Shown: piece by piece, positions 19,454-22,837 of the stretch
Layout of the letters: each line of letters starts with the position of its first letter
Position numbering within the stretch: position 1 is the stretch's first letter
NCBI RefSeq assembly: GCF_900142125.1
Contig: NZ_FQZT01000018.1
Span: 1 to 44,326 of the forward strand
Direction: 5' to 3'
DNA: 44,326 nucleotides
Origin: Malonomonas rubra DSM 5091
GTDB taxonomy: Bacteria > Desulfobacterota > Desulfuromonadia > Desulfuromonadales > Geopsychrobacteraceae
Translations under genes and position numbers: made by a program
The notes under the pieces: generated by a model
Told to the model about the DNA's origin: nothing
What the model saw: only the letters and a program-made list of their open reading frames with translations
The model's database searches: none

Positions 19454-19981
19454 CTACAACCCCTTTTTTTCAAAAAACCTGAAAAGAGCTAGTCCACCCA
19501 AAATTGCGATTATGATAATTATCCAGTGATTGACTCCCAATACTCCAGGGAGGGATATTTTTCCAAAATCCCCCCAGGTCAGGACTGTCTTTTTCATAAA
19601 GGGAAAAGTTTCGGCAAACAGTGCTGCCCCTGCCAGCATTCCAAAGATTCCCCAAAGCGCATCCCAGCGGCCTTCTGCCAGGGCTCCGGCGGATGTGCCA
19701 GGACAATAGCCAAGAAGCCCCCAGCCAATACCGAAGATCAATCCCCCTACGATGTTACCGCCCAGAACCGTTGCTTTTAAGCTTAGCTTTGCAAGCTCCA
19801 AGTCGACCAACAGATAAACCCCGACCATACCGACCAAGACACTAGACAACATAAATTTGATGATTGTCATGTCTTTAAATAGCAGCGCACCAAGCTGCTT
19901 GTCATAGCGGAGAACTCGACCTTTTTGCAGCAAAAAGCCGAACGCGATACCAGTCAAGAGTCCATAGATCAGCATTTTCAT
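19454..19981 (-). CDS. YeeE/YedE-type transporter, second subunit (DUF6691-like)
   Basis: This is a 175-residue membrane protein with about five helices. The start ATG 19981 follows GGGGAGG and overlaps the stop of the preceding gene as ATGA. It carries N-I-V-G-G-L-I-F-G-I-G-W-G-L-L-G-Y-C-P-G-T-S-A-G, in which the Cys of G-Y-C-P-G-T is the conserved thiol of this half. In YeeE/YedE proteins such cysteines relay thiosulfate or related sulfur species through the membrane. Here the two halves are separate genes, and this half keeps a normal Cys codon (TGT). It is paired with the apparent selenocysteine-containing half. Confidence 0.88.
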   Translation of the reverse strand: MKMLIYGLLTGIAFGFLLQKGRVLRYDKQLGALLFKDMTIIKFMLSSVLVGMVGVYLLVDLELAKLSLKATVLGGNIVGGLIFGIGWGLLGYCPGTSAGALAEGRWDALWGIFGMLAGAALFAETFPFMKKTVLTWGDFGKISLPGVLGVNHWIIIIIAILGGLALFRFFEKKGL

Positions 19982-20502
19982 GACGGCCTCCCCCCGTAAA
20001 TGATATGTGCGACAATAATTCCGCCGACAAAGAAGCAAGCCAGAGAAAGAAAACCGCTTACTGCTAGCTGGAGCGAACCGCTCAGCCCGTGACCACTCGG
20101 TCAGCCATCAGCCAATCGTGCGCCGTACATAGCGATAGTGCCACCTGAAAAAGCGAAGACCGCCCTCTTTACATTGCTCTCCGGACCAAAGCGCTGTTGC
20201 CATAAATCAGGCAACCCCTGCCATCGAAAAGATTTTGAAGTTTTCGCAGCGATGAAGGCACCAATAAATATGCCGACAACAAACATCCACTGCCAGTCGA
20301 TTTTAGGAGTCGTTTTGATGAAATACTCCATTTGTGCTACGCGCTCGGGAGAGATGAGCTGTTCCAGCAAACCGACCGATCGAACAAATGTCGTAGATGC
20401 CCCCAAAAACTGTCCTGCGATCCAAACAGATAGCACTGACACAAGCCCTGAAAGGGCTCCGGCTAAATAAGGATTCCACCCCTTGTCTTCCTGATTTAAC
20501 AT
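19978..20502 (-). CDS. YeeE/YedE-type transporter, first subunit, with in-frame TGA (probable selenocysteine)
   Basis: Read conventionally the gene ends at TGA 20103-20101 after 133 residues (…G-A-R-L-A-D-G). The same frame then stays open for 40 codons, P-S-G-H-G-L-S-G-S-L-Q-L-A-V-S-G and a further hydrophobic helix, and ends at TGA 19980-19978, overlapping the next gene's ATG. Family members read A-R-x-A-x-G-C-x-S-G-H-G-x-S-G, so the TGA takes the place of the conserved Cys. Full length would be 174 residues, with Sec at 134. A SECIS-like hairpin lies just downstream. The start ATG 20502 has AAAGGAG upstream. The protein has about five helices and transports sulfur or selenium species with its partner. 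The alternative is a nonsense mutation, which would not explain the preserved downstream frame and hairpin. Confidence 0.87.
20066..20087 (-). promoter_or_regulatory. Candidate bacterial SECIS hairpin of the YeeE/YedE gene
   Basis: After the TGA (20103-20101), bases 20087-20083 (GGCTG) pair with 20070-20066 (CAGCT; one G-U pair). C71 bulges out, AGC (20082-20080) pairs with GCT (20074-20072), and the apical loop is GGTTC (20079-20075). The loop begins 21 bases after the TGA and has G in its first two positions. This matches the published bacterial SECIS model as I remember it (short upper stem, G in the first two loop bases, about 16-37 bases from UGA). Drawn by eye, not folded. Confidence 0.68.
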
Positions 20503-20725
20503 TGAAAAACTCCTTTCCCCTCTTTGTCTGCACAATATAAAGCAAATGTCTGAATGTAATTATACGGCAAAACTTCGGCCATTCAATTTTCTAACGGCTT
20601 ATTTACGAGGGGAGAGCAATTCGGCAATGCTACAACAGCTACCAGCTAGTAGTGATCGAGAAGCCGATCTTAAAGGTCCAATTCGTGACACCAAAAATCG
20701 ACAAATCCGTTTTGCAAAATAAAAT

Positions 20726-21127: not shown

Positions 21128-21703
21128 TTAGGCGGTGGCGTTTTTCATTGCCGTTATACGTCGATAAATTGTCGTCACCGAGACATCGAACTTTTCAGCC
21201 AGTTCTTCTTTAGTCAGCGCCTCTTCCTTGATCCAGGTAGCCAGTGATTCTTCTTCCAGTTCAGACAATTTGGGTTTGCGACCAAATTTAACTCCGGCAG
21301 CCATTGCCCGCTTTCGGCCTTCATTGATCCGCTCTGTGATCAGTTCCCGTTCAAATTCACCTATGACGGCCAGAACATGGAATATCAATCGCCCAGTCGG
21401 TGTTGATGTGTCCAGTTCCTGATCGAGAACCTGCAGATCGCAGTTTTTATCCTGAAGTGTCTGAGTGATCTGCATCAGGTCATGAACCGAGCGAGCAAGT
21501 CGATCCAACTTGGTGACAACAAAGACGTCACCGTTACGTACGTAGGCTAATGCTTCCTGGAGGGCGGGCCGGGATGCTCCGCGACGCCCGGAAACTTTCT
21601 CTTCGAAAATACGGTCACAATCTGCCAGCTTTTCCCGTTGGATACCTAAGTCCTGGGCATTTGTGCTGACACGAGCATAACCAACCTTTTGACCAACAAT
21701 CAT
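21128..21703 (-). CDS. Serine recombinase (resolvase/invertase family)
   Basis: This 191-residue protein has the resolvase catalytic domain (about 5-140) with Y-A-R-V-S-T-N-A-Q, where Ser13 is the nucleophile. R-L-A-R-S-V-H-D-L and G-E-F-E-R-E-L-I-T-E-R follow, the latter beginning the long E helix. A C-terminal helix-turn-helix (about 150-190, L-T-K-E-E-L-A-E-K-F-D-V-S-V-T-T-I-Y-R) binds the crossover site. The length equals Tn3-type resolvases. GGAGG lies before the ATG. No transposase accompanies it here; it lies near a toxin-antitoxin pair, which suggests a remnant of a plasmid or transposon. Confidence 0.92.
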   Translation of the reverse strand: MIVGQKVGYARVSTNAQDLGIQREKLADCDRIFEEKVSGRRGASRPALQEALAYVRNGDVFVVTKLDRLARSVHDLMQITQTLQDKNCDLQVLDQELDTSTPTGRLIFHVLAVIGEFERELITERINEGRKRAMAAGVKFGRKPKLSELEEESLATWIKEEALTKEELAEKFDVSVTTIYRRITAMKNATA

Positions 21704-21792: not shown

Positions 21793-22107
21793 TTAGTGGT
21801 GGCAGACCTTCAAGCTCAGATGCTCAGAGCTACTACAGGCTCTAAGGATGCCAATGAAGTTTTTCAACGTGGGATTTCCACTTGGTCCGAGCATACGGCG
21901 AAGGCTTTTTTCATCTTTTTGAAGCTGCTCTGCAACAACAGTAAATGCCTCGGTTGCATTGAGATAGTCTCGAATCAAACTCTTGCCGGTATCAATGTCA
22001 CCTTCAAGAAGAGCATTGGTTGCTTCTACGATTAGCTCTTCGCGGAACTCTTTATCTGCTTTGGCCCTTGCCATGACGGTGTCTTTAAAATTTCTTGTCA
22101 GGGGCAT
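21793..22107 (-). CDS. HigA-like addiction-module antitoxin (putative DNA-binding antidote)
   Basis: This is a 104-residue protein; ATG 22107 has AAGGGAGG upstream. The middle (A-T-N-A-L-L-E-G-D-I-D-T-G-K-S-L-I-R-D-Y) and the C-terminal helix-turn-helix region with S-L-R-R-M-L-G-P-S-G-N-P-T-L-K-N-F-I match the antidote family (COG3636 type) coded after RelE/HigB-like toxins. It starts one base after the toxin's stop, so translation is probably coupled. It would bind and neutralise the toxin and repress the operon. Confidence 0.83.
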   Translation of the reverse strand: MPLTRNFKDTVMARAKADKEFREELIVEATNALLEGDIDTGKSLIRDYLNATEAFTVVAEQLQKDEKSLRRMLGPSGNPTLKNFIGILRACSSSEHLSLKVCHH

Positions 22108-22108
22108 T

Positions 22109-22441
22109 CTAACCTCCCTTTTGCTCTTTTTTGCGCTGTTTAAAATCTTGCCAACGATTTTTCGCTGCTTCAATATCTGACTGCTGACGTTTTTTTGTTC
22201 CCCCAGCCAACAGAATCACAAGGGTTTGGCCATCGTAAGCAAAGTAGATTCGATAGCCGGGTCCAAAATCAATTTTGTATTCCTGGACTCCAGATCCAAG
22301 TGATTTGACATTGGATGTATTTCCAGCTTCGAGCCTTGCGAGTGCGGTGGTAATTTTTGCCGCAGCCCGAGCATTCAGCTTTAAAAACCAATCTGAAAAA
22401 GGGCTTTTGCCCTCCTCTGTCAGATACTCTTCAATTCTCAT
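22109..22441 (-). CDS. RelE/HigB-type toxin (phage Gp49-like family)
   Basis: This is a 110-residue basic protein; the start M-R-I-E-E-Y-L at 22441 was chosen over an upstream in-frame position at 22474. Family marks are F-S-D-W-F-L-K-L, R-L-E-A-G-N, V-Q-E-Y-K-I-D-F-G-P-G-Y-R-I-Y-F and L-L-A-G-G-T-K-K-R-Q. These proteins cut mRNA at the ribosome when free of antitoxin. Toxin-first order is normal for this type. Confidence 0.87.
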   Translation of the reverse strand: MRIEEYLTEEGKSPFSDWFLKLNARAAAKITTALARLEAGNTSNVKSLGSGVQEYKIDFGPGYRIYFAYDGQTLVILLAGGTKKRQQSDIEAAKNRWQDFKQRKKEQKGG

Positions 22442-22837
22442 CACAACTCCACTTGGTTGCATAAATGTTACCATAATTCTTCTGTTTCAGCTATAAATAA
22501 TCGAAACAGAAAGCTCTGCCCCAAAGATTTTCAGTTTTATAGGGCTTGATGTGGAAGCCATGGCAGGGGCAATGGAGTCCTTCTTTTCATTCAAAAAACC
22601 TGAAAGTCATTTTTGGTAATCGGCCCATATTAGTGAGCGCAAACAAAGTCTAGATTTTGAGGGGATATTTGGCAGGAAGAGCGGGTACAAACCACCCTGT
22701 TGAAAGTCAGAAAAACAGTTTTGGGACCGGGAAATCTTAGATTCGCGCAATACTGCTTATTTTTGCAAAAGAATGCCCCTGATTATTTCAGAGGCATTTG
22801 TCATGAAACTCACAACTTTTTAGATATCAAAACAGAA

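Follow-up and report, generated by a model that had tools for sequence, protein, structure and literature searches.

The YeeE/YedE transporter half-gene studied here, gene A, carries an in-frame UGA codon, which poses the question of whether this codon terminates the protein or is read as selenocysteine (Sec) and, in the latter case, what a Sec residue would do in such a transporter. The stretch of Malonomonas rubra DSM 5091 DNA that was analysed, termed the window, comprises 44,326 nucleotides, within which gene A occupies positions 19978–20502 of the reverse strand. The gene starts with an ATG at 20502–20500, 7 nt downstream of a Shine-Dalgarno-like AAGGAG (20510–20515, reverse strand) recognized in the sequence, and reaches the in-frame TGA (20103–20101) after 133 codons. 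Beyond it, 40 codons in all, comprising the residues PSGHGLSG and a hydrophobic stretch, lead to the TGA stop at 19980–19978, which overlaps the ATG of the following gene (19981–19979) as ATGA. Sequence and translation hence bore out this layout as given in a preliminary description of the locus, including the point that a standard gene caller would truncate the product to 133 residues, as the ORF does stop at the UGA under the standard code. Read through the UGA, gene A encodes a C-terminal-type half of a YeeE/YedE transporter of 174 residues with the predicted Sec at residue 134, scoring 87.7 bits with PF04143 (gathering cut-off 27) and covering profile positions 174–310.

The following gene B (19454–19981, reverse strand) encodes an N-terminal-type YeeE/YedE half of 175 residues, with a PF04143 score of 51.7 bits against the same cut-off and coverage of profile positions 14–150. 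In the alignment with YeeE of Spirochaeta thermophila (StYeeE; 6leo), the predicted Sec134 of gene A (codon 20101–20103, reverse strand) falls on Cys293 (GGCNIGH), while gene B aligns to 6leo 2–112, which places its Cys93 (YCPGT) on Cys91 and a Leu on the Cys22 site. Half A modelled on its own gave a structure of low quality (pLDDT 63.4, pTM 0.40), which was kept out of fold searches, so that the position of the Sec site derives solely from sequence alignment.

Conservation of the UGA codon and of the frame beyond it

Scanning a genome collection with search patterns placed outside the UGA codon yielded 75 homologous loci, where the codon at the Sec column was TGA in 51, TGC in 18 and TGT in 6 cases, and TAA or TAG in none of the 75. 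Two further HSPs of locus L094 were set aside: one belongs to a different frame, and the other leaves the column uncovered. The homologue alignment thereby confirmed that the UGA stands at the conserved Cys of the family, as all 24 non-UGA loci exhibited Cys codons. Because homologues carry the codon at the same column, a chance in-frame UGA is excluded; the occurrence of the same UGA in many genomes, together with a second copy in the M. rubra genome itself, also excludes a sequencing error for TGC or TGT, a concern raised in the preliminary description.

The UGA loci include L065 of the cultured species Desulfoprunum benzoelyticum DSM 28570. Counting the window and 51 loci, the reading frame runs on for 36–42 codons past the UGA in 50 of the 52 UGA genes. 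The two exceptions are L090, whose contig ends one codon past the UGA, and L094, which holds a frameshifted gene A copy (2142 onwards). When 51 UGA genes were compared with one another over codons +14 to +36, the fractions of differing first, second and third positions were 0.31, 0.11 and 0.61, respectively, substitutions thus falling mostly on third positions. This profile indicates that the frame downstream of the UGA evolves as translated sequence. The motif DG-[U/C]-PSGHGLSG is nearly constant among the closer relatives. In a sample of the phylum, 60 of 297 genomes contained a relative at E ≤ 1e-40, and 35 of the 64 rows obtained from this sample were scored as containing one TGA, which gives an upper bound for the number of Sec copies. 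Five further relatives had been reported with an internal TAG or TAA, but each of them shows Cys at the column and a match free of stops, so that no second recoded stop codon was observed.

A UGA acting as a true stop, leaving gene A as a pseudogene or as the gene of a 133-residue protein, perhaps through a recent mutation or a sequencing error, would agree with the closure of the standard-code frame at this codon and with the frameshifted gene A copy of the relative L094. However, the recurrence of the UGA in 51 of the 75 loci and in the second own-genome copy, the lack of TAA and TAG at the column in these loci, the Cys residues and uninterrupted matches of the five relatives mentioned above, the coding constraint downstream of the UGA and the SECIS pairing described below render this explanation highly improbable.

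SECIS-like hairpin and selenocysteine machinery

Directly 3' of the UGA, we observed a bacterial-SECIS-like hairpin (20067–20086, reverse strand) of 7 pairs with the apical loop GGUUC (20079–20075), its stem beginning 14 nt past the UGA. The complete hairpin, with all 7 pairs and a GGU.. loop, was present in 42 of 51 UGA genes and in none of the 24 Cys genes, compared with a mean of 0.4 and a maximum of 3 of 51 under a synonymous-recoding null. For this count the 51 UGA genes comprise the window and 50 loci, including L094 and excluding L090, where the contig ends. The hairpin was drawn from the fold of the window, and a second register lacking the bulge was added after inspecting the sequences; both registers were allowed for the Cys set and for the null. 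Sliding the register abolished the pairing.

Covariation was analysed on 30 of the 51 sequences, which were picked by hand and leave out most of the second register. In this set, 10 cells were changed on both sides of a pair compared with 2.1 in shuffles, none of 500 shuffles being as high, and the covarying pairs were 18–37 and 19–36 (GC/AU/UA, CG/UA). The number of pairs with changes on both sides was 2 in these 30 sequences, an ordinary value that 130 of 500 shuffles also reached. Two Cys genes, L024 and L058, keep 6 of the 7 pairs with the loop-adjacent pair broken, as expected after loss of Sec; in a first tree (see below), L024 was sister to the UGA gene L025. The hairpin is contained in the minimum free energy fold of the window and of L080, is partly present in that of L028 and is absent from that of L071. 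Its stability in the window corresponds to a z of −2.17 on 39 nt and of −0.71 on 54 nt; in view of the latter value, single-sequence energy gives no argument for a SECIS element, and the pairing across homologues served instead. An Rfam scan of positions 19900–20600 with E up to 1 yielded no match.

The preliminary description had made its Sec reading dependent on selB and selC. In the M. rubra genome (3.96 Mb, 42 contigs, completeness 100), the whole set was found above cut-off, with 587.9 bits for selA (cut-off 267.9), 352.7 bits for selB (242.25), 358.1 bits for selD (125) and 69.9 bits for tRNA-Sec (gathering cut-off 47), the latter with the anticodon loop CUUCAAA. Contig C29 carries selD, selB and selA as neighbours, and the tRNA-Sec gene is on another contig. 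The selD gene adjoining selB and selA (L018, G000:C29:415274-416200) contains a UGA itself. Across the genomes of 50 of the 75 loci, some of them metagenome-assembled and possibly incomplete, selB was above cut-off in 21 of 26 UGA genomes, but 16 of 24 Cys genomes had it as well; its co-occurrence therefore hardly discriminates between the two forms. Among the UGA genomes lacking selB above cut-off, the best matches were EF-Tu- or EF-G-like for L030, L048, L062 and L080, and partial for L056.

A reading of the UGA as Trp or Cys, through a general code change or leaky stop readthrough, leaves the frame open by construction, but is equally improbable, given that the alternatives at the column are Cys codons only (24 of 24 non-UGA loci), that only UGA genes have the complete hairpin, that the genome holds a full Sec system and that genes of the family terminate normally with TGA, TAA or TAG at the corresponding end. 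Together, the Cys column, the hairpin, the sel genes and the coding constraint past the UGA back the Sec reading already put forward in the preliminary description, and we assign a probability of about 0.93 to the prediction that the UGA of gene A, a YeeE/YedE half, specifies Sec. The hairpin would then guide SelB to the UGA, resulting in Sec insertion at residue 134 and in full-length A instead of the 133-residue fragment.

Gene copies and repeated exchange of Sec and Cys

The M. rubra genome contains three A genes, each with its own B half beside it: the window copy, a further UGA copy on contig C18 (L109, G000:C18:11571-12077) that is 88% identical to it, and a Cys copy on contig C38 (L110, G000:C38:27470-27973) with 56% identity. 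A tree of 80 rows (52 Sec, 28 Cys), leaving out L089–L096 as fragments, frameshifted or distant (3 Sec, 5 Cys) as well as L098, indicated at least 11 changes between Sec and Cys, with 9–12 across bootstrap replicates and 6 forced by well-supported branches. This tree supersedes the first one, which was based on 75 rows, 10 of them without a B half, and gave 12 changes.

The two UGA copies of the genome group with the Desulfuromonadales genes L022 and L023. The Cys copy on C38 falls within a well-supported set of 7 Cys rows, where the five nearest rows are from its own family, one from its own genus. Within nine further genomes of the genus (completeness 76–99), the UGA copy was found in none and a Cys-type copy in one. 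The lack of a UGA copy in these nine genomes makes the distribution of the UGA pair patchy, and the pair may have been gained horizontally. No relative of the pair was detected in a scan of viral contigs, and a plasmid search gave no match. Upstream of the pair (21128–21703 and 21793–22474, both on the reverse strand) lie genes for a serine resolvase and a Gp49/DUF891-type protein, the latter next to a small ORF without Pfam match in a toxin-antitoxin-like arrangement, which suggests a mobile neighbourhood.

Proposed function of the gene pair

Both transporter halves, A and B, align with TsuA/YeeE of S. thermophila (6leo, 8k1r). In contrast to TsuA/YeeE, the transporter is encoded here by two genes, the C-terminal half preceding the N-terminal one, there is no adjacent YeeD, and the three TsuA cysteines are not all kept: Sec stands at the Cys293 site, Cys at the Cys91 site and Leu at the Cys22 site. 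Among the partners in the homologous loci, 71 of the 72 that cover the Cys91 column have Cys there, the exception being the frameshifted L094, and Cys at the Cys22 column was found in 0 of 74. Published descriptions report two adjacent half-genes with one conserved Cys site each likewise for PmpA/PmpB of Serratia and YedE1/YedE2 of Cupriavidus. PmpA corresponds to the Cys293 half and PmpB to the Cys91 half, and a heterodimer was proposed (PMC11582611); split YedE1E2 was described to import zero-valent sulfur in E. coli with both Cys being essential (PMC10812762). The window pair differs from PmpA/PmpB by Sec at the PmpA-type Cys and by the length of its halves, which at 174 and 175 residues are each about 40 residues longer than the roughly 130 residues of the Serratia proteins.

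Based on Sec134 and Cys93 at the Cys293 and Cys91 positions, on a Cys22 site that is never Cys and on the PmpAB and YedE1E2 reports, we favour a two-site Se/S importer for sulfane sulfur. As judged from sequence, genes A and B most likely encode an importer of the two-gene, PmpAB/YedE1E2-like type, with sulfane sulfur (polysulfide or persulfide) as the most likely substrate and thiosulfate as the second. Given the Sec reading, a sulfur rather than a selenium substrate is very probable, and the chances for sulfane sulfur rather than thiosulfate are about even. The two halves, probably as a heterodimer, would form a YeeE/YedE-type membrane importer for reduced sulfur species, in which Sec134 would be the first residue of the path and Cys93 of the partner the second. 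The selenolate would be the first to bind the incoming sulfur atom or thiosulfate and the partner thiol the second, before a carrier or a reductase receives it on the cytoplasmic side. Two TusA-family matches are encoded in the genome on contigs other than that of the pair, L117 (G000:C33:16683-16856), a TusA domain within a frame of 206 residues, a length matching that of YedF, and the TusA-like L118 (C29:448522-448740); both are possible sulfur or selenium carriers.

Thiosulfate import through a hydrogen-bond relay as in TsuA/YeeE, in which Sec would simply stand in for Cys and add no new chemistry, is a possibility of somewhat less than even weight. Sec134 and Cys93 align with Cys293 and Cys91 of StYeeE, both called indispensable (PMC11582611), and C293 is described as the first cysteine of the thiosulfate path (PMC11073785). 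Against this stand the third relay cysteine, Cys22, missing in all 74 partners, and the different behaviour of full-length YedE3 and split YedE1E2 towards polysulfide (PMC10812762). In addition, the scores with the TsuA models stayed below the cut-offs, which are set for full-length chains: 45.1 of 400 (NF052577) and 44.3 of 645 (NF041049) for half A, and 52 and 32.5, respectively, for half B. A covalent alternative to this relay, where a Se-persulfide at Sec134 hands sulfane sulfur to Cys93 of the partner and Sec and Cys importers are kept side by side, tying sulfur uptake to the selenium supply, is tentative and rather doubtful. If true, the Sec version would be a selenium-dependent and the Cys version a selenium-independent importer.

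The gene neighbourhood was analysed for the window and for its relatives. Beside the A/B pair, no sulfur gene was recognized within the window, and the CoA-disulfide-reductase-like flavoprotein found elsewhere is not beside the window pair. In 8 of 73 clustered contexts (5 Sec, 3 Cys), with flanks often cut by contig ends, this flavoprotein adjoins the pair in the same orientation, lying downstream in L039, L048, L054, L057 and L060 and upstream in L041, L061 and L078. The L039 protein, the one of these eight that was scanned, scores 438.5 of 458, just below the CoA-disulfide reductase cut-off. A cyclic-nucleotide-binding protein follows the flavoprotein in L039, L048 and L054 and is encoded near the pair in four other loci. 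The CoA-disulfide reductase family includes polysulfide reductases. For Thermotoga, a polysulfide reductase was reported to be induced together with a yeeE (PMC9431562).

The preliminary description had considered a sulfur/selenium transporter. The Sec protein as a YedE-type transporter of a selenium compound shares the superfamily with the predicted selenium transporter YedE/FdhT (TIGR04112, NF033796), a link to selenium and weak matches to the respective models. The selenium link of YedE/FdhT consists of its occurrence with selD, and the protein is split in archaea (PMC5322559); it is not a Sec residue in the protein. Moreover, the models scored far below their cut-offs, which are set for full-length proteins, with 31.1 (half A) and 27.6 (half B) of 350 for NF033796 and, for TIGR04112, 28.3 of 200 for half B and no match for half A, and even the summed scores of both halves fall far short. 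The pair is not beside selD, selA and selB, which sit together on another contig, and its recurrent neighbours in related loci are the CoA-disulfide-reductase-like enzyme and the cyclic-nucleotide-binding protein and no selenium genes. Selenium transport is thus unlikely, and the split sulfur-transporter type fits better.

The preliminary description had also left room for a Sec form new to this family. Such a form is already listed: a YeeE/YedE selenoprotein is tabulated in PMC9312934 (2022), where no motif is given, and appears in PMC13188914 (2026) in a table with the motif GUxSG and in a sentence of the text. The entries of both reviews cite Zhang and Gladyshev 2008 and Peng et al. 2016, the main texts of which do not contain the words YeeE/YedE, and give WP_012471001.1 as an example. 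This protein belongs to the same PF04143, and the GUPSG of gene A fits the listed motif, a match that suggests a shared subfamily. The accessible portions of the two reviews contain no SECIS, partner-gene or Cys-site analysis of Sec YeeE/YedE, and our literature search, which is no proof of absence, returned only these entries and no functional study. The Sec YeeE/YedE gene of M. rubra is thus a real and well-supported selenoprotein gene from a family that earlier lists of predicted selenoproteins include. Our analysis adds the SECIS pairing and its covariation, the repeated switching between Sec and Cys and the presence of both forms in one genome.

Of the predicted selenoproteins listed in PMC13188914, only a minority are transporters. 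Here, the predicted Sec sits where a structurally characterized relative makes contact with its substrate. With at least 11 changes between Sec and Cys and one genome holding both, the family offers natural pairs for addressing what selenium adds to sulfur transport, and the relay model of YeeE becomes directly testable by placing Sec, Cys or Ser at a single site.
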